Under the pieces are notes generated by a model, which saw nothing but the letters and a program-made list of their open reading frames with translations, was not told where the DNA came from and searched no databases. Below, one piece after another: positions 525-8,354 of a DNA stretch of 32,727 nucleotides (position 1 is the first letter of the stretch; each line of letters opens with the position of its first letter). The stretch is from Bacteroidota bacterium. Lineage in GTDB: Bacteria; Bacteroidota; Bacteroidia; Chitinophagales; JADIYW01. The translations under genes and the position numbers were made by a program. The DNA is taken from positions 1 through 32,727 of the forward strand of contig JAGQYE010000014.1 of the NCBI GenBank assembly GCA_020436225.1, given 5' to 3'.

Positions 525-1463
525 ATGAATATTTCTTTAACGCAATTAGAGTATGTTTTGGCAATAGATAATTACAGACATTTTGCTAAAGCAGCAGAAG
601 CTTGTTTAGTAACACAACCTACGTTGAGTATGCAACTCAAAAAATTAGAAGAAGAATTGAAGGTAGATATTTTTGACAGAAGCAAGCAGCCAATTATTCC
701 TACTGATGCCGGAAAAGAACTAATAGAGCAAGCTCGAATAATATTGCGCGAAGCAAAGAAATTAGAACATATTGCCAAGCATTTCGATAACACATCCGAA
801 GGTAGTTTAACGATTGGTATTATTCCAACTATTGCACCTTATTTGATGCCCTATTTTTTAGGCGATTTCTTGAAAAAATACAAGAAAATCCAATTGATCA
901 TTTATGAAATGAAAACAGAAGAAATCATCTTAAAATTGAATAAAGATGAAATTGATGTCGGCATCTTGGCAACGCCGTTGCACGAAATGAATATTATTGA
1001 AGAGCCATTATTTTATGAAGAAATAAAAGTGTATGCGCATTTTAATCATCCGTTATTAAAGAAAACAGCATTAGAGCATAAAGACATTCAACGCGAAGAT
1101 ATTTGGATGTTATCTAAAGGAAATTGTTTTAGAAACCAAGTCATTAATATTTGTACAGAACCAAAACGTATAGATGAGCAATTGCGCTATGAAAGCGGCT
1201 CACTTGAAACACTAAAAAAAATGGTGGACACAGAAGGCGGCTTTACGTTGTTGCCGGAATTAGCTGTTTTAGAATTGCCAACTAAACGATTGAATTATGT
1301 GGTTGGTTTCAAGAAACCCAAACCATTGCGTGAAATAAGCATTGTATATGCTCGTAGTGTTTCTAAAAAGAAAATAATTGATATTGTGAAGAAACAAATT
1401 ACGAGTAATGTGCCCGAATATTTATGCGATAAAAAACGAGGCACCATCGTAGAATGGAAATAA
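525..1463 (+). CDS. oxyR: OxyR, LysR-family peroxide-sensing regulator
   Basis: This 312-residue protein has a LysR-type N-terminal winged HTH (about residues 5-65, with A-K-A-A-E-A-C-x-V-T-Q-P-T-L-S-M) and a C-terminal substrate-binding-like domain (about 92-295). Two cysteines at positions 201 and 210, in a G-N-C-F-R-N-Q-V-I-N-I-C segment, match the spacing and context of the redox pair C199/C208 of E. coli OxyR, which forms a disulfide on reaction with H2O2. That pair separates OxyR from other LysR regulators. The ATG at 525 gives the expected N-terminus. The divergent dps is the obvious target. The alternative, a generic LysR regulator, is unlikely given the cysteine pair. Confidence 0.93.
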   Translation: MNISLTQLEYVLAIDNYRHFAKAAEACLVTQPTLSMQLKKLEEELKVDIFDRSKQPIIPTDAGKELIEQARIILREAKKLEHIAKHFDNTSEGSLTIGIIPTIAPYLMPYFLGDFLKKYKKIQLIIYEMKTEEIILKLNKDEIDVGILATPLHEMNIIEEPLFYEEIKVYAHFNHPLLKKTALEHKDIQREDIWMLSKGNCFRNQVINICTEPKRIDEQLRYESGSLETLKKMVDTEGGFTLLPELAVLELPTKRLNYVVGFKKPKPLREISIVYARSVSKKKIIDIVKKQITSNVPEYLCDKKRGTIVEWK

Positions 1464-1556: not shown

Positions 1557-1569
1557 TTCCAACAAGCTA

Positions 1570-1637
1570 AGGAAAACCCTGAATTTTTCGTTCGGCAGTT
1601 TCTGCTGAAAATAATGCTGTTGTTTTGATAGAATTTT
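1570..1637 (+). promoter_or_regulatory. Leader motif copy A (upstream box and GAATTTT box, 61-base phase)
   Basis: AGGAAAACCCTGAATTTTT starts at 1570 and AGAATTTTACATCATCAAAC has its GAATTTT at 1631, exactly 61 bases from the first box. The second arm of the upstream box, AGTTTCTGCT (1597-1606), is a degenerate inverted copy of the first. The downstream box ends about 43 bases before the ATG at 1681. The arrangement recurs at 2093 (same strand) and 7121 (minus strand). The likely reading is an activator dyad about 45-55 bases upstream of a non-consensus promoter. Confidence 0.65.
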
Positions 1638-1680
1638 ACATCATCAAACTAAACAATTATCAACCATAAAAAATAACAGT

Positions 1681-2088
1681 ATGAAAACACTTATCAAAAC
1701 AGCAGCAGTTATCAGTTTCATTGCTTTCACGTCAACAAGCATATTCGGTAAAACAAGAACAATGACAATCAATCAATTTCAATTGTACATCAACAAGATT
1801 GATAGTAGTGTTGTTGGTACTTGGGAAAAAAACTGGAACATCAACCAACAATCAAAAATCGAGTTCTGTCAATTTAATCCAAACGGAACATATATCGCCT
1901 TTCAAAAAAGAAACAATAAATATGTGGTTACAGGTAGAGGCAATTGGAATACAGAAAAAGGCACACTCACAATTATGCAAGGAAATGAAATTTCAAGTGC
2001 TTCTAAATATACATCTGACGGAAATTACTTGATGTTTGAAAATAATATTTCGTATTCAAAACCGGCAGCAGCTATTGCAAATAAATAA
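1681..2088 (+). CDS. Small secreted lipocalin-like protein (VGTW / FNPNGT type)
   Basis: The 135-residue protein begins with a signal peptide (about residues 1-23, K-rich start then a hydrophobic core) and no clear lipobox cysteine, so it is probably periplasmic or secreted. The mature part has V-G-T-W (45-48), F-N-P-N-G-T (65-70) and G-N-W (87-89), the spacing seen in small beta-barrel lipocalin-like domains of Bacteroidota. The same three landmarks in the same order occur in the next gene, so the two are probably diverged tandem paralogues; both also share a leader. The ATG at 1681 follows the conserved leader directly. The ligand and exact function are unknown; no catalytic motif is visible. 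Confidence 0.75.
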   Translation: MKTLIKTAAVISFIAFTSTSIFGKTRTMTINQFQLYINKIDSSVVGTWEKNWNINQQSKIEFCQFNPNGTYIAFQKRNNKYVVTGRGNWNTEKGTLTIMQGNEISSASKYTSDGNYLMFENNISYSKPAAAIANK

Positions 2089-2092
2089 ACAA

Positions 2093-2160
2093 AGGAAAAC
2101 CCTGAATTTTTAAATCAAAGGTTTAGCCTGAAGATAAGGAAACACAAAAGCAAGAATTTT
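2093..2160 (+). promoter_or_regulatory. Leader motif copy B (upstream box and GAATTTT box, 61-base phase)
   Basis: AGGAAAACCCTGAATTTTT at 2093 is identical to copy A over its first 19 bases, and GAATTTTACATCATCAAAC at 2154 is identical to copy A over 19 bases. The distance between them is again 61 bases, while most of the intervening sequence differs. A degenerate inverted arm GGTTTAGCCT lies at 2120-2129. It starts five bases after the preceding stop codon, so the downstream genes have their own promoter. The ATG is at 2201. Confidence 0.65.
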
Positions 2161-2200
2161 ACATCATCAAACAAATTAATAACAACAAAAAATTACAACA

Positions 2201-2611
2201 ATGAAAAAATCAATATCTATCCTCGCAACGTTAATCGCAATGTCTTTTTCAACAGCATTTGCTCAAACTAAAAACATCGACAACAATTTAGTAGGCACTT
2301 GGATGCAACAAGATATGTTGGCAAGCAGTGGTTACGGCGATTATGCATCCTACGTTTCCGTAACGTATTACCAATTTAACCAAAATGGCACAGTTTGCGT
2401 AACAGAAGGCGGTTCAGTTAGTAGTGGCAACGATTGGAGCTATAATAACAGCGGAAGCGGAAATGCTCAATGTGGAAATTGGTATGTACAAGATGGCTAC
2501 ATCTATTTTGAACAAAACGGTCAATTTTATGGCTACGTCAAATACACTTTTCACAACGGACAATTAGTATTAGGCACCAGCGGAAATTATGTATTTCTTA
2601 CCAGAGAATAA
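2201..2611 (+). CDS. Small secreted lipocalin-like protein, paralogue of the preceding gene
   Basis: This 136-residue protein has a clear signal peptide ending A-F-A-Q (cleavage near residue 21). The mature protein repeats the plan of its neighbour: V-G-T-W at 31-34, F-N-Q-N-G-T at 59-64 and G-N-W at 92-94, with alternating aromatic and polar strands rich in Tyr, Gly and Asn. Two cysteines (66 and 91) could form a disulfide in the periplasm or outside the cell. It heads an apparent operon with the next two genes (gaps of 29 and 31 bases) and has its own copy of the leader. Function is unknown; a surface-exposed or stress-related beta-barrel is the best guess from fold clues. Confidence 0.75.
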   Translation: MKKSISILATLIAMSFSTAFAQTKNIDNNLVGTWMQQDMLASSGYGDYASYVSVTYYQFNQNGTVCVTEGGSVSSGNDWSYNNSGSGNAQCGNWYVQDGYIYFEQNGQFYGYVKYTFHNGQLVLGTSGNYVFLTRE

Positions 2612-2640
2612 AATATTCATCACTAAATAAAAATAAGATT

Positions 2641-3462
2641 ATGAAAACAGTAACAAAAATTAGAAGTATAGTAGCTATTATAGTTATCTTCTTCGCAGCA
2701 TTTAGCACTTCTTGCAACAAAGCGGAAAACATTACACCAACGCCACCTACACCGCAAGGTCCACAAATTCCGGAAACACCGGCAGTGTCATTGAAACCAA
2801 GCACAATAATTACAACTGAAAATGGAGTTGCTACAAGAAAACAATTTTATCAATACGACAATCAAGGAAATTTATTAAAATATTTATCCGTTGATGTAAA
2901 TAATGGATTTGATTCTGTTTTATTAAGAAGTAACAATGTATCATTTAAAACAAGCGAAACTAACGAAATCGCTCAGTCTCTGACTTTAAACAACAGCAGA
3001 ACATTTAAGTCTTTATTTTCCGGAACAACTCAAATAGATTTTATAAACAACGGTAATAATTTATCTTCAATGCAAAGAATTAGACAAGGCAATACTCCTT
3101 TAAATGTTGGTGCTTTCACTTATTCTGGTAACAACTTGAGTGTTATCGGTGCTGAAATAAGAATTGATATTAATTACCACCAAAACCTACCTTACCAAAA
3201 AGGAATCAATGAAATACCTGTTGCATTAAAACCAATAAAATTCTATAAAATAATGGAAATGGAAAATGCAACGTCAACGTTCTTATACAATAAATTTATT
3301 CGACAAGTAATAATAGATTTCGGTAATAGAAAAGAATTACATAGTTATTCTTACACTTTTGACGAAAACAACAGAGTAACCGAGATTAGAGATGTACAAA
3401 CTATTACTACTTCGACTTCTTCTTCACAAAAAACAGTTATTAGCAATATTTCATACAATTAA
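2641..3462 (+). CDS. Lipoprotein with YD-like strand repeats (DUF4595-like)
   Basis: The 273-residue protein starts with a signal peptide and lipobox F-S-T-S-C (Cys25), then a Pro/Thr-rich linker (about 30-50) typical of lipoproteins reaching away from the membrane. The body carries Q-Y-D-N-Q-G-N-L and T-F-D-E-N-N-R-V-T-E-I segments, the short Y/F-D-x-x-G/N-R-x repeat seen in DUF4595/RHS-like Bacteroidota lipoproteins. No enzyme motif is present. The preceding gene ends 29 bases earlier and the ATG is preceded by AAGATT, as for the next gene, so co-transcription from the leader at 2093 is likely. The family assignment is by resemblance only. Confidence 0.7.
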   Translation: MKTVTKIRSIVAIIVIFFAAFSTSCNKAENITPTPPTPQGPQIPETPAVSLKPSTIITTENGVATRKQFYQYDNQGNLLKYLSVDVNNGFDSVLLRSNNVSFKTSETNEIAQSLTLNNSRTFKSLFSGTTQIDFINNGNNLSSMQRIRQGNTPLNVGAFTYSGNNLSVIGAEIRIDINYHQNLPYQKGINEIPVALKPIKFYKIMEMENATSTFLYNKFIRQVIIDFGNRKELHSYSYTFDENNRVTEIRDVQTITTSTSSSQKTVISNISYN

Positions 3463-3493
3463 AATTCATTCTTAACTATTAAACATCAAGATT

Positions 3494-3889
3494 ATGAAAA
3501 CAATTATCATTAAATCGCTCGCAACAATTTTCTCTTTTTTGTTGCTAATAGGAGCTACAAGTTGTAAAAAAGAAAACACATTTACAGATTTAACCGGACA
3601 ATGGAGCAACGTAAGAAGTGTGGGAACTTTTTTAAATGTACTAACACAATTAAAAATGGAAACCGACGGCAGTGCAACAGAAACCGTTATGAACATCACC
3701 ACCAGCACCACAACTACAGTTTCTGAAAGAGACTTAACCTGGAAAGTGGAAAATGAAAACGAATTGGTTTTGCAAGAAAGTGGTCAGTCGGAAGAACGAT
3801 TCACCTTTTCGCTCGAAGAAGAAAACAAGAAATTGGTATTGACTGCAATACCAAATGGAAGTCCTTCTGAGTATTTTAAAGACGAATAA
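3494..3889 (+). CDS. Small lipocalin-like lipoprotein
   Basis: A 131-residue protein with signal peptide and lipobox G-A-T-S-C (Cys24). The mature part opens with L-T-G-Q-W (33-37), the counterpart of V-G-T-W in the genes at 1681 and 2201, followed by strands such as L-K-M-E-T-D-G-S and L-T-W-K-V-E-N-E-N-E-L-V-L, a layout common in lipocalin-like lipoproteins of Bacteroidota. It is the last gene of the small operon and is followed by a strong terminator at 3925-3955. Function is unknown. Confidence 0.72.
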   Translation: MKTIIIKSLATIFSFLLLIGATSCKKENTFTDLTGQWSNVRSVGTFLNVLTQLKMETDGSATETVMNITTSTTTTVSERDLTWKVENENELVLQESGQSEERFTFSLEEENKKLVLTAIPNGSPSEYFKDE

Positions 3890-3924
3890 CAACAAACCAC
3901 AAAAACCATAATTTTAGTTGTTTG

Positions 3925-3955
3925 GAGTGTACAAGAATTCTTGTGCACTCTTTTT
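3925..3955 (+). terminator. Rho-independent terminator of the envelope operon
   Basis: An 11-base stem GAGTGTACAAG / CTTGTGCACTC (one G-T pair) closes on an AATT loop and is followed by TTTTT. It sits 35 bases after the lipoprotein stop codon, and its T-run overlaps the stop codon of the convergent kinase gene, so it may also help end that transcript from the other side. Confidence 0.85.
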
Positions 3956-5858
3956 ATTTAATTGGTAAGTCAATATTTATTGATGTTCCTTTGCCAACGT
4001 TAGAGTTGATATCCATAGTACCGCCAAGCAATTGAATTCGATGTTGCATGCTGTTTAATCCGATGCCGGTTTTATTTTTTAAAATGGAAACATCAAAACC
4101 AATTCCATCATCTTCAACAGTAATCGAAATAGATTTTTCATTTTTGATGAGTTGTACTAACACTTCTTTGGCATTTGCATATTTGACTATGTTGTTCAAT
4201 AATTCTTGAATAATTCTGTAGATTAATAATTCTTGTCGATGAGCTAAACGTGTTTCAAAATGGTAATGTTGAAAATCGATATCAAGATGAGCATTGTGTT
4301 GCATTTGCGTACAAAATTGCGTCAAAGCATCAATTAAACCTAAGCGTTCCAGCGCAGATGGCATCAATGCATGCGATATTTTTCGGATATCTTGAGCAGT
4401 TGTATTCAATAAATCTAAAGCCTTATTATATTCTGCATTGTGCGAAATGCTTTCATTATTTTTCTTGACGTTGGCAAATTGCAATTTCAACATACTCATC
4501 AAACCGCCGATGCCGTCGTGCAACTCGTTGGCTAAGCGCACGCGTTCTTGCTCTTCGCCATCCATAATGGCTTGCGTCAATTCCAATTGTTTTTGTTGTT
4601 CAATATTCAAAATTCGTTCTTGCAATAATTTTTGTCTTTGTTTAAAAAATAGATATAAAAATAAAGAACCGACAAGTGCAAGTAAACATAAAATGCCGAC
4701 AACCAACAAGCGAGTTGTTGCCTGTTTGGTCTTTAATTGTTGTTGTTGGATTTCAATTTTTTGCTGTGCAATTTTTGTTTCTTTCTGCGCCGTTTGATAT
4801 TTCGTTTCCAATTCATTTAACGTATTATTTCTTTTTTCAAAAAAAACACTGTCGCTGTTTTGCTGATATAACTCTACGTAATGCAAAGCACTTTTGTAAT
4901 TACCCAAAGCCGACTCAATGGCATAATATAATGCATAAATACGCTTGTTTAATTGAAAAGAAAGCAGCGTTTTGGCTTGGATTTCTGCTTTCTGAATGGC
5001 AATTTTTGCTTGTTCTTTCTTGTTTGTATGAAGATACGATTCCGCTAAATTGCAATAAGCAAAAGCAGCATCATACTTGGATGTTGTTTTTGAAATATAT
5101 TGGAGCGAGGCTTGCGCATTTTGTTGAGCTGCTTGCCAATTTTGTTTGCTTTTATAATATTCATAAAAGGCTTCATAAGCATAAGCGATAACAAAATTAT
5201 TCTGAATGGCTTTGCCATCTTGCAACGCTAATTGGGCATAATGTTGCGCACTGTCTTCTTTATTCGTTTTCGTGAAAGCAATAGAAACATCATGGGCAAT
5301 CGTAGCAATACTAAATGTGTCGTTTTTTAATTTTGCAGTTTGATAAGCCAACAAATTATAGCGCAAAGCATTGTTATATTGCTCTGTATAATTGTAAATA
5401 GAAGCAATGTTGCTATAGCAAACGGTCAATCCTTTCAAAAACTGAATGCTATCAAAAAGAACGGCTGCTTTTTGATAATGCGCAATTGCTAAATCGTAAT
5501 AACCTTGTACTTGATAAATGTTGGCGATGGAATTATAAGTAATGCCAATTTCTTTTGCATTTTTTATTTTTTGAAAGACTTGTATCGCTTGTTGGCATAA
5601 AGAAATGGATAGTTGATTTTCATTTTTATTGACAAGCAACAAAGCCTTTTCTCGCAACGATTTTGCATAAATTTCAGGATTTGTAGTAGCCAATTTTTTA
5701 TTGTCTAAAATCTGATTATAATAAAATAAGGCACTATCTGATCGAATCTTTTTTAAGAATTGTGCTTGCTTATAGATGCTATCCGGATGAAGTGCAGATG
5801 TTGGTAAACTAGTCCAACAAACCAACATCAAACAGAAATATTTTAACCCGTTTTTCAA
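3954..5858 (-). CDS. TPR-domain sensor histidine kinase (HisKA_3 / NarL-partner type)
   Basis: The 634-residue protein has an N-terminal signal-like segment (1-22), then tetratricopeptide-type helical pairs over about 25-340 placed outside the cytoplasm, a coiled coil (about 340-382), one membrane segment (384-405), and a cytoplasmic kinase. The phospho-acceptor is His447 in E-L-H-D-G-I-G-G, typical of HisKA_3 kinases paired with LuxR-type regulators. ATP-binding motifs follow: N box Q-E-L-L-N-N-I-V-K-Y (551-560), D-D-G-I-G-F-D (583-589) and G-I-G-L-N-S-M (598-604). The start is a TTG at 5858, just after an in-frame stop; the next start, ATG at 5828, would lose the basic end of the signal segment, so TTG is preferred. 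The regulator gene diverges 69 bases away and is the clear partner. Confidence 0.9.
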   Translation of the reverse strand: MKNGLKYFCLMLVCWTSLPTSALHPDSIYKQAQFLKKIRSDSALFYYNQILDNKKLATTNPEIYAKSLREKALLLVNKNENQLSISLCQQAIQVFQKIKNAKEIGITYNSIANIYQVQGYYDLAIAHYQKAAVLFDSIQFLKGLTVCYSNIASIYNYTEQYNNALRYNLLAYQTAKLKNDTFSIATIAHDVSIAFTKTNKEDSAQHYAQLALQDGKAIQNNFVIAYAYEAFYEYYKSKQNWQAAQQNAQASLQYISKTTSKYDAAFAYCNLAESYLHTNKKEQAKIAIQKAEIQAKTLLSFQLNKRIYALYYAIESALGNYKSALHYVELYQQNSDSVFFEKRNNTLNELETKYQTAQKETKIAQQKIEIQQQQLKTKQATTRLLVVGILCLLALVGSLFLYLFFKQRQKLLQERILNIEQQKQLELTQAIMDGEEQERVRLANELHDGIGGLMSMLKLQFANVKKNNESISHNAEYNKALDLLNTTAQDIRKISHALMPSALERLGLIDALTQFCTQMQHNAHLDIDFQHYHFETRLAHRQELLIYRIIQELLNNIVKYANAKEVLVQLIKNEKSISITVEDDGIGFDVSILKNKTGIGLNSMQHRIQLLGGTMDINSNVGKGTSINIDLPIK

Positions 5859-5927
5859 TTTAAAATTATTTTTTTAGCATACAGACCAACATAAAAATAT
5901 TATTTTTATTCAACATAAATCAAAAAC

Positions 5928-6566
5928 ATGACAACAATTGGCATTATTGACGACCACGGAATTGTGTTACAAGGTGTTTCTAATATTTTCTCAAGTAAAA
6001 AAGAATATAAAATTCAATTTGCAATTAATAATATAACTGAAGCAAAAACATCCTTAGAAAATACTCAACCACAAGTTCTGTTTCTCGACATCAATATAAA
6101 AGGAGATGATGGTTTGGAAGCACTGAAAGTTTTCAAGAAACAATTCCCGGAAATGAAAATTATTATGTTGACTTCTTTCGAAGAAACGGCTTTAGTGAAA
6201 ACTGCATTGCGCAATGGAGCCAATGGTTATTTATTGAAAGATGCAACAGAACAAGAATTTTTAGCTGCTGTTGAAGTTGTTTTAAATGGCGAACAATACA
6301 TTCAAAAAAGCGTACAAGAGTTGATGTTGAAAGAAGCAATGGGACAGAAAAAGGACACAACGTATATTCCAAAACTAACGCGCCGTGAGAAAGAAATTCT
6401 TCAGTTAATTGTTGACGAAAAAACAACACAAGAGATTGCCGATACCTTATTTTTAAGTGTATCGACAATCGAAACGCATCGTATGAATTTAATTAGCAAA
6501 TTGGGCGTAAAAAATGTAGCCGGTTTGGTAAAACTTACGTTAGAAAGAGGTTTGCTTAAAGAATAA
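5928..6566 (+). CDS. NarL/LuxR-type response regulator, partner of the TPR kinase
   Basis: This 212-residue protein has a receiver domain (about 1-120) with the acidic pair D8/D9, phospho-acceptor D54 in L-F-L-D-I-N, switch Thr82 and Lys104. A LuxR/GerE HTH (about 149-212) follows, with L-T-R-R-E-K-E-I-L, the recognition region S-V-S-T-I-E-T-H-R and the conserved K-L-G-V-K-N. All catalytic residues are present. It is transcribed away from the kinase gene and meets the next lipoprotein gene tail to tail. LuxR-type regulators bind short inverted repeats, so the shared dyad in the leaders at 1570, 2093 and 7121 is a natural candidate target; that link is inferred. Confidence 0.92.
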   Translation: MTTIGIIDDHGIVLQGVSNIFSSKKEYKIQFAINNITEAKTSLENTQPQVLFLDINIKGDDGLEALKVFKKQFPEMKIIMLTSFEETALVKTALRNGANGYLLKDATEQEFLAAVEVVLNGEQYIQKSVQELMLKEAMGQKKDTTYIPKLTRREKEILQLIVDEKTTQEIADTLFLSVSTIETHRMNLISKLGVKNVAGLVKLTLERGLLKE

Positions 6567-6567
6567 G

Positions 6568-7032
6568 CTAAATTTTACTAAACGTAACTCTAAATTTTAC
6601 AGTTTTATTACTTGCATTTTTTGCAAAATAACTCACTCGAAATGAAGACGCACTGCGCGATTCAATTTCCCAAATTTCATTGGTGCCATTGCCATCAACT
6701 CGAAGTGAATTGCCATTGTTTAATTCTTCAAGAATACCTTCATCTTTAATTTGTGGATCACCGGAATTACATTTTGTTGCACCTTCATCTAACTTAAATG
6801 TATTGTTCGATGCAATAAAAATCCATTCGTTGTCTTTGGCACAATCGCTTGGTGTAACCAATATATTCGGAATCGTATCGCTTGGATTTGCAGTTGTAGA
6901 ATCAACAGAAATTAAGATGCTTGTTTTCTTCCAATTGTTTTTTGATAAGTCTTCAATTAATGACGATTCATCTTCTTTAGTACAAGCAAAAAATGTTGCA
7001 ATGCATAACATCAGCATTAAATAATTCTTCAT
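6568..7032 (-). CDS. Lipocalin-like domain lipoprotein
   Basis: The 154-residue protein starts with a short signal peptide and lipobox T-F-F-A-C (Cys17). The mature domain contains L-S-K-N-N-W-K (29-35), C-A-K-D-N-E-W-I-F (64-72), F-K-L-D-E-G-A-T-K-C (79-88) and a strand-rich C-terminus. The paired Cys64 and Cys88 around the D-N-x-x-x-F ... E-G-x-x-K-C pattern are characteristic of lipocalin-like lipoproteins of Bacteroidota. Its ATG at 7032 is preceded by AAGATT, as in the genes at 2641 and 3494, and by the third copy of the leader motif, on the minus strand. It ends one base after the response-regulator stop codon. Ligand unknown. Confidence 0.78.
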   Translation of the reverse strand: MKNYLMLMLCIATFFACTKEDESSLIEDLSKNNWKKTSILISVDSTTANPSDTIPNILVTPSDCAKDNEWIFIASNNTFKLDEGATKCNSGDPQIKDEGILEELNNGNSLRVDGNGTNEIWEIESRSASSFRVSYFAKNASNKTVKFRVTFSKI

Positions 7033-7053
7033 AATCTTTAAATTTTATAAATT

Positions 7054-7121
7054 AAAATTCTTGTTTTTTGTGAATTTAAAAATAAAGGAAAACCACCAAT
7101 TTTAAAACTCAAGGTTTTCCT
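7054..7121 (-). promoter_or_regulatory. Leader motif copy C (61-base phase; upstream box a perfect dyad)
   Basis: Read on the minus strand, AGGAAAACCTTGAGTTTT begins at 7121 and GAATTTTAATTTAT begins at 7060, again 61 bases apart. Here the upstream box is a perfect inverted repeat: AGGAAAACC, an 18-base spacer, then GGTTTTCCT (plus-strand 7086-7121). In copies A and B the second arm is degraded but falls at the same 18-base spacing. The ATG at 7032 lies 22 bases beyond the GAATTTT box. Confidence 0.65.
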
Positions 7122-7283: not shown

Positions 7284-8354
7284 TTATTTTTTATTAGCTA
7301 ATTGACCACAAGCGGCATCTATATCTTTGCCTCTGCTTTTGCGCACGTTTGCAATTACTTTATGCTTGGATAAATAGTCGATAAATTTATCGCGCGTTTC
7401 TATAGTTGATTTATGAAAATCAGCTTGCTCAATTTTGTTGTATTCAATAACATTTACTTTTACATTGTCTAATTGTCTGCAAATGGCAATCAATTTCTTG
7501 GCATCGTCAATCGTATCGTTTACGCCATCTAACAAAATATATTCAAACGTCAATTCGCCTTTACATTTCGATTGAAAATATTTCAGCGCATCAATCAATA
7601 CTTCAATATTATTATGCTCATTAATCGGCATAATGGTATTGCGTTTTTCATCATCGGCAGCATGCAACGAAACAGCCAAATTAAATTTCACTTCATCATC
7701 GCCTAATTTTTTTATCATTTTAGCAATGCCAGCAGTTGAAACCGTAATGCGTTTTGCCGACATATTCAAACCTTCTTCCGAAGTAATTTTTTCAATAGCA
7801 TCCAAAACATTACTATAATTCAACATCGGTTCGCCCATGCCCATAAATACAATGTTCGATAAATTTCTGCCTATACTTTCTTGTGCTTGTTGGTTAATTA
7901 AAACCACTTGGTCATAAATTTCTGCCGCCGTTAAATTGCGTTCGCGTTTCAAGAAACCGGTAGCACAAAACGAACACGATAAACTGCAACCTACTTGAGA
8001 GGAAACACAAGCCGTTGCTCTGTCTTCCGTTGGAATTAAAACGCCTTCAATTAAATGTTTGTCGTGCAACTGAAAAGCCGACTTTATTGTGCCGTCGTTA
8101 GATTTTTGTTTTTTATAAGTTGAAATAGGAAGAATAGAAAAATGTGCATTTAATTTCTCGCGCAAATCTTTAGATAGGTTGGTCATTTCCTCAAAACTAA
8201 CTGCCGATTTTTTCCAAAGCCATTCATAAATTTGTTTAGCACGAAATGGTTTCTCGCCCAACTTTTCTAATTGAGTAATGAGTTGTTCTTTAGAGAGTGT
8301 TCGTATGTCTGTTTTGGGTTGCAAAGCACTGCAAAGATAGGTCTTCTTTTTCAT
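7284..8354 (-). CDS. rlmN: RlmN, dual-specificity 23S rRNA/tRNA adenine-C2 methyltransferase
   Basis: The 356-residue protein is a radical-SAM enzyme: C123-x3-C127-x2-C130 binds the 4Fe-4S cluster, and G-M-G-E-P (172-176) belongs to the SAM site. The two cysteines of the RlmN mechanism are present: Cys116 in A-T-A-C-V-S-S-Q and Cys349 in A-A-C-G-Q-L near the end, matching C118 and C355 of E. coli. It methylates A2503 of 23S rRNA and A37 of some tRNAs. From the ATG at 8354 the first 10-14 residues are not family-like. A consensus -7 box TATCTTTG lies inside that stretch (8339 to 8332, minus strand) just before an in-frame TTG at 8324, so the true start may be there. Confidence 0.95.
   Translation of the reverse strand: MKKKTYLCSALQPKTDIRTLSKEQLITQLEKLGEKPFRAKQIYEWLWKKSAVSFEEMTNLSKDLREKLNAHFSILPISTYKKQKSNDGTIKSAFQLHDKHLIEGVLIPTEDRATACVSSQVGCSLSCSFCATGFLKRERNLTAAEIYDQVVLINQQAQESIGRNLSNIVFMGMGEPMLNYSNVLDAIEKITSEEGLNMSAKRITVSTAGIAKMIKKLGDDEVKFNLAVSLHAADDEKRNTIMPINEHNNIEVLIDALKYFQSKCKGELTFEYILLDGVNDTIDDAKKLIAICRQLDNVKVNVIEYNKIEQADFHKSTIETRDKFIDYLSKHKVIANVRKSRGKDIDAACGQLANKK

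Follow-up and report, generated by a model that had tools for sequence, protein, structure and literature searches.

The window, by which we mean the whole stretch of 32,727 nucleotides analyzed here, contains a module of seven intact ORFs between an oxyR-like gene and rlmN. The ORF list confirms the following layout:

525..1463, + strand: oxyR-like LysR gene, left flank of the module (Pfam HTH_1 and LysR_substrate)
1681..2088, + strand: P1, secreted protein of 135 aa (VGTW); ORF with orthologues in L057 and L059, homologous to P2
2201..2611, + strand: P2, secreted protein of 136 aa (VGTW); ORF with orthologues in G005, G006 and G007 (contig end) and a stub in G004
2641..3462, + strand: YD, lipoprotein of 273 aa with a single RHS-repeat match, starting 29 bp after P2
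3494..3889, + strand: LP4, lipoprotein of 131 aa, starting 31 bp after YD
3954..5858, - strand: TPR sensor histidine kinase of 634 aa (Pfam TPRs, HisKA_3 and HATPase_c)
5928..6566, + strand: LuxR/NarL-type response regulator of 212 aa (Pfam Response_reg and GerE), divergent from the kinase
6568..7032, - strand: LP5, lipoprotein of 154 aa with a lipocalin-like model (ORF and fold match)
7284..8354, - strand: rlmN, right flank of the module

The original prediction had proposed exactly this set of five small exported proteins around an intact TPR kinase and its divergent regulator, and both parts of that proposal stand: the HisKA_3 and HATPase_c domains of the kinase and the receiver and GerE domains of the regulator all score above their Pfam cut-offs, in genes that lie side by side. 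Read from its sequence, the kinase has a signal sequence at the N terminus and, further on, one membrane helix, and its TPR_12 match (residues 66-131) lies N-terminal of the kinase domains; the signal sequence would place the TPRs on the extracytoplasmic side of the membrane. Against NCBIfam, every family among the best 25 of 29 for the kinase and the best 25 of 97 for the regulator scores below its own cut-off, as does the OxyR model with the OxyR-like protein (233 bits, cut-off 329). LP5 is convergent with the regulator, and 1 base separates their stop codons.

Of the small proteins, P1, P2, LP4 and LP5 match no Pfam family above cut-off. Profile comparison bears out the predicted paralogy of the two VGTW proteins, P1 and P2 being homologous (hhalign E 3.6e-11), while the YD-like character assigned to the third protein corresponds to one RHS_repeat stretch (25.1 bits, cut-off 22) of a kind that usually occurs in series. 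LP4 is homologous to C126, a VGKW lipoprotein encoded elsewhere in the genome of the window (G000); C126 is weakly like DUF5640 and has its N-terminal part in common with P2. No relation was detected by profile comparison between LP5 and P2, between LP5 and C126, or between LP4 and P2. The lipocalin-like nature predicted for two of the lipoproteins is upheld at medium confidence for LP5, whose model (mean pLDDT 65.0) matches solved lipocalins (Foldseek 3.5e-5 and 5.5e-4 for the two best; VIA Z 9-10) and for which Pfam lists no family, lipocalin included, up to E 1; for LP4 it comes down to homology with the weakly DUF5640-like C126. The broader claim that all the small proteins are envelope beta-barrels goes beyond what the models of the two proteins folded, LP5 and P2, show, the P2 model (mean pLDDT 47.6) being unusable for a fold search and the P2 match to Pfam Lipocalin_4 (E 0.58) lying below the cut-off. 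Among solved structures, the LP5 model aligns with Bacteroides lipocalin-like lipoproteins and Tannerella potempin E (4gzv, 4qrl and 4i95, Z 9.0-9.5; 8ehd, Z 9.2), at 7-16% identity, and such a shared fold shows no function.

The flanking oxyR and rlmN genes are found in all eight genomes of the genus, which are drafts and in some cases incomplete, and the module lies in four of them (G000, G005, G006 and G007), split over contigs in two. Related species keep its gene order and orientation, so the grouping goes beyond chance, and the gene set is conserved as a syntenic module inherited together. The oxyR-rlmN interval of G005 holds all module genes except P1, and in G006 all seven genes are found over two contigs, with the kinase in two pieces. 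The two contigs of G007 carry P1, the beginning of P2, the greater part of the kinase, the regulator and LP5, and YD has no match anywhere in this draft, which is 85% complete. G004 retains a P2 stub alone, adjoining rlmN and departing from the other sequences after residue 97. In G001, G002 and G003 none of the seven genes lies between oxyR and rlmN, which in G001 are about 10 bp apart. On a genus tree of OxyR and RlmN the presence of the module takes three changes, two of them forced by well-supported branches; module presence and absence therefore alternate and are not the mark of one clade.

Several other features of these loci may be recorded here. Beside oxyR, six of seven relatives (L056, L057, L059, L061, L062 and L063) encode a sigma-70-family factor, with regions 2 and 4, together with a membrane protein of 212 aa; the window does not. 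Between LP4 and the kinase of G005 (L056:8213-8991) two adjacent ORFs of 84 and 172 aa resemble a frame-interrupted further lipoprotein gene. The rlmN gene of G003 (L062:5253-6398) has one in-frame TGA, either a sequencing error or a sign of a pseudogene. Another TPR kinase of the genus adjoins, in several genomes, a large divergent lipoprotein-like ORF of 463-472 aa (L129, L131, L134, L138 and L139), one of which was scanned and has no Pfam match.

P2, searched in 60 relatives, was found outside its own genome in G004-G007 and as one 38% match in G051. Across 248 genomes of the order, the YD profile matches strongly in G000, G005 and G006 and weakly over part of its length in G012, G042, G054 and G210; the C126 profile, which also catches LP4 of G000 and G006, is strong only in those two genomes and weak in G063 and G218; and the LP5 profile reaches E < 1e-80 in four genomes, which are exactly the kinase-positive ones. 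Another 29 of the 248, including G002, show weak similarity to LP5 (E 4e-13 or weaker), in a search with the LP5 profile alone. P1 was followed in its own genome and the synteny loci, and LP4 in the synteny loci and through the C126 matches. In these searches P2, YD, C126 and, weak LP5-like matches aside, LP5 do not occur widely without the kinase/regulator pair; a wide occurrence of that sort would have told against the original proposal.

The DNA upstream of P1, P2, more weakly LP5, and dispersed genes for small exported proteins carries a shared element of 85 bp, in which two 12-bp boxes lie 26 bp apart and are followed by a -7-like box:

1567..1651, + strand: P1 promoter element, with box A at 1571-1582, box B at 1597-1608 and the -7-like box from 1631 (alignment columns)
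2090..2174, + strand: P2 promoter element, with box A at 2094-2105, box B at 2120-2131 and the -7-like box from 2154 (alignment)
7042..7121, - strand: weaker LP5 promoter element, with boxes at 7109-7120 and 7083-7094, 26 bp apart (E 1.8e-6 with a model not trained on it)
5891..5909, strand not assigned: A+T-rich palindrome in the kinase/regulator gap, conserved in all four species compared and unlike the three-box element

The string AAGGAAAACCCTGA is common to the upstream DNA of P1 (3 of 3 species) and P2 (4 of 5), about 95-115 bp before the start codon, the upstream DNA of the G004 P2 stub being the one that lacks it. With at most one mismatch, AGGAAAACCNTGA occurs three times in the window, before P1, P2 and LP5, versus 0.2 occurrences expected, and none of 100 shuffles reaches three. 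A 19-bp first-box pattern, allowed up to two mismatches, has 13 sites in the genus (four in G000, one in G005, five in G006 and three in G007) and none in the kinase-negative G001-G004; at three mismatches it occurs in all eight genomes, at a level like that of the reversed control. The sites outside the cluster precede the VGKW lipoprotein (G000:C126 and G006:C63), another lipoprotein (G006:C27) and a 96-aa secreted protein (G006:C187 and G007:C193). Twelve of the 13 sites, picked by box A alone and leaving out the LP5 site of G000, align gaplessly into box A GGAAAACCCTGA, box B (GG-TTT-CTGA-like) exactly 26 bp on, and then GAATTTTACATCATCAAA. Promoters of Bacteroidota have a -7 box of the form TAnnTTTG, which we take the last block of the element to resemble; on this assignment box B would lie near -42 and box A near -68. 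By a crude rule, a signal peptide begins the product of seven of the eight genes predicted to be driven by the element versus 20 of 144 control ORFs, the eighth gene (C27) counting as a miss because it was entered one codon late. The element is absent from the kinase/regulator gap throughout the genus and from the P2-YD and YD-LP4 gaps; given the lack of an element in these last two and their lengths of 29 and 31 bp, YD and LP4 are probably read from the P2 promoter. Rfam recognizes no known RNA family in the window or in 12 distant loci.

It is conceivable that the likeness of these promoters merely reflects a tandem duplication of P1/P2 together with their upstream DNA, next to which the kinase and regulator would be chance neighbors in a variable island. 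P1 and P2 are indeed paralogues with near-identical upstream blocks, and the oxyR-rlmN interval does vary within the genus; however, the same element stands before LP5 and before unrelated genes on other contigs (C27 and C187/C193), and it tracks the presence of the kinase in eight of eight genomes, so that we hold this explanation to be very improbable. The same distribution bears on the sigma-70-family factor mentioned above, whose promoter the element might be, with the two-component genes as bystanders. This factor and its membrane partner lie divergently beside P1/P2 in G005, G006, G007 and G004, and the GGAAAAC core of box A is, in our estimation, somewhat like the -35 box of ECF factors. 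Yet the sigma pair occupies that place in G002, G003 and G004, all of which lack the element, whereas G000 has the element and lacks the pair at that place (the position between oxyR and the module), and LuxR regulators adjoin distant element sites described below. Because the distributions of sigma pair and element differ, the sigma-promoter reading is disfavored, and we give it little credence.

The shared promoter signal suggests instead that the kinase/regulator pair controls the neighboring and the dispersed small exported proteins alike, and a regulon partly clustered with the kinase and regulator genes and partly dispersed is the simplest account of its sites. R1, a sequence-only model built from the 12 aligned sites, extends the pattern: it finds a match outside its training set before another lipoprotein of G006 (C307, E 2.7e-8) and, likewise untrained, the LP5 promoters of three of four species (G000, 1.8e-6; G007, 1.7e-4; G006, 0.002), missing that of G005 (E 0.4). 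Its best matches in the four kinase-negative genomes (0.0076, 0.016, 0.068 and 0.10) are at the background level of the positive ones. A weak match in G005 (L128:2176-2245, that is G005:C13:325675-325744; E 0.0019) lies just before a gene for a 446-aa exported protein, a possible second target in that genome.

With E up to 1e-3 the element is matched in 16 of the 248 genomes of the order, namely the four kinase-positive members of the genus and 12 others, and in 17 of 199 genomes of family f18. Taken together, these searches locate the element at 25 distinct places beyond the genus, a second-strand match at G166 (L152) being left out of the count; singly they are weak, most at 1e-5 to 1e-3. 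Eleven of the 25 have beside them a gene related to that of the regulator or kinase in the window, within a fetched locus of up to 1.5 kb on each side of the element, versus none of 30 control loci, which were picked for weak LP5 or YD matches and come mostly from genomes other than those of the test loci. All 11 belong to the 19 places tested first (11/19 vs 0/30; Fisher p 2.6e-6), and weak matches among the later six, a LuxR-type HTH in a membrane protein (L148) and another kinase (L150), were excluded from them. The other 14 places have no related regulator or kinase beside them, and some fall within coding sequence. When 32 offsets were compared at 21 sites outside the model, the 26-bp spacing came out best at 11.

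The layouts of these distant loci vary around the same components. The element separates the regulator from a divergent TPR gene in L195, L198, L207, L208 and L210; it stands directly 3' of a regulator-kinase pair in L193 and L196; and it separates the regulator from a LytTR gene in L212. In L209 the order is regulator, element, exported-protein gene and TPR gene, and in L211 the regulator side of the element alone is in view. Complete TPR kinases are recognized by Pfam in L193, L195, L196 and L198, and L207-L210 show the TPR part, the kinase part being cut off. In G217 (L194:9360-14181) the element has a LuxR regulator on one side and, on the other, a Pvc16_N gene that tail-sheath genes follow, so that a contractile-injection-like cluster is perhaps under such a regulator there.

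Two wider generalizations were tried and set aside. The element is not general to kinase loci of this type, as nothing better than E 0.036 was found in 37 loci (258 kb; 27 distinct places, ten having been refetched longer) drawn in by other relatives of the window's kinase. Nor do the element-associated regulators form one clade, those of the distant sites and the window needing four changes on the tree; their origin may be single. In a second family (L193, L196, L202, L203, L204, L205, L206, L207, L210 and L211) the element often precedes about 120-360 nt without a clear ORF and then a terminator-like hairpin, which occurs within 485 nt in 11 of 12 stretches examined. These short stretches are candidates for regulator-driven small RNAs or short peptides.

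The distant loci also bear on whether at least one of the small exported proteins is a ligand or modulator of the TPR sensor, closing a feedback loop, rather than all of them being outputs alone. In L198, L208 and L209 the element is separated from the TPR gene by an ORF (of 89, 133 and 255 aa, respectively) that apparently begins with a signal sequence; the kinase domain of the TPR gene can be seen in L198 only. For FimS, likewise a TPR kinase, a polypeptide was proposed as the ligand (PMC11053733). Against this, the three proteins have no visible relation to P1, P2 or LP5, and at several distant sites what the element drives is a short stretch that holds no clear ORF; we regard such a loop as unlikely.

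The explanation that we favor, and consider likely from the sequence comparisons, is that the kinase and regulator form a two-component system that governs a regulon of its own, made up of small exported proteins whose promoters the regulator binds at the paired boxes. The extracytoplasmic TPR domain of the kinase would detect a ligand, and the kinase would then phosphorylate the LuxR-type regulator. We infer that the latter would occupy the two 12-bp boxes, 26 bp apart and immediately upstream of the -7-like box, and would thereby control, most likely by activation, P1, the putative P2-YD-LP4 operon, LP5 and the dispersed genes encoding small secreted proteins and lipoproteins. The exported products would probably work as ligand-binding or protective envelope lipoproteins; envelope stress as the signal and protection as the function are conjectures drawn from where the proteins are located. 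If the regulator indeed controls the small exported proteins as a regulon, they would be its outputs; this part of the original proposal, which had also allowed that they are ligands of the sensor, gains support from the element before P1, P2, LP5 and dispersed genes, which tracks the kinase and regulator across the genus.

Among known systems the closest parallel is FimS/FimR of Porphyromonas gingivalis, which the published accounts describe as a kinase with extracytoplasmic TPRs whose partner regulator binds target promoters and controls exported proteins of the cell surface (PMC11053733, PMC1974823), the signal of FimS being stated as unknown (PMC11053733). The window's pair likewise combines a TPR sensor, presumably extracytoplasmic, with a LuxR-type partner; however, its kinase scores 63.6 bits on the NCBIfam FimS model (cut-off 600), and the targets of FimS/FimR are fimbriae, whereas those predicted here are small secreted proteins and lipoproteins with a defined paired box as the predicted site. 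The kinase also scores below the NCBIfam cut-off for the envelope-stress kinase LiaS (85.7 bits, cut-off 450). In its receiver and GerE domains the regulator resembles those of GacS/GacA and NarX/NarL, but it stays below the NCBIfam cut-offs for UvrY/SirA/GacA (113 bits, cut-off 280) and NarL (105 bits, cut-off 250), and its sensor differs from theirs in the predicted extracytoplasmic TPRs. GacA drives small RNAs, of which the short terminated stretches of the second family are reminiscent. As an idea, a TPR sensor gene beside small exported products recalls the Gram-positive RRNPP systems (Rap/Phr, ComR/ComS), where, unlike in the window, with its TPRs in a membrane histidine kinase, the TPR receptors are cytoplasmic. 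A literature search over titles and the starts of abstracts returned no description of this system, and the 12-base string of box A turns up in 5 papers, all with unrelated titles.

A more far-reaching possibility, which we think doubtful at best, is that the TPR kinase/LuxR pair represents a widespread signaling type of Bacteroidota, in which a paired-box operator drives small exported proteins, or short terminated transcripts in another family, and an exported product is the ligand of the TPRs. If true, it would correspond, on the envelope side, to the TPR-peptide sensing known from Gram-positive bacteria. The predicted operator, the compact regulon and the presence/absence pairs within one genus make the site, output and signal of a TPR kinase testable, and small lipoproteins that are otherwise anonymous gain a regulatory context.
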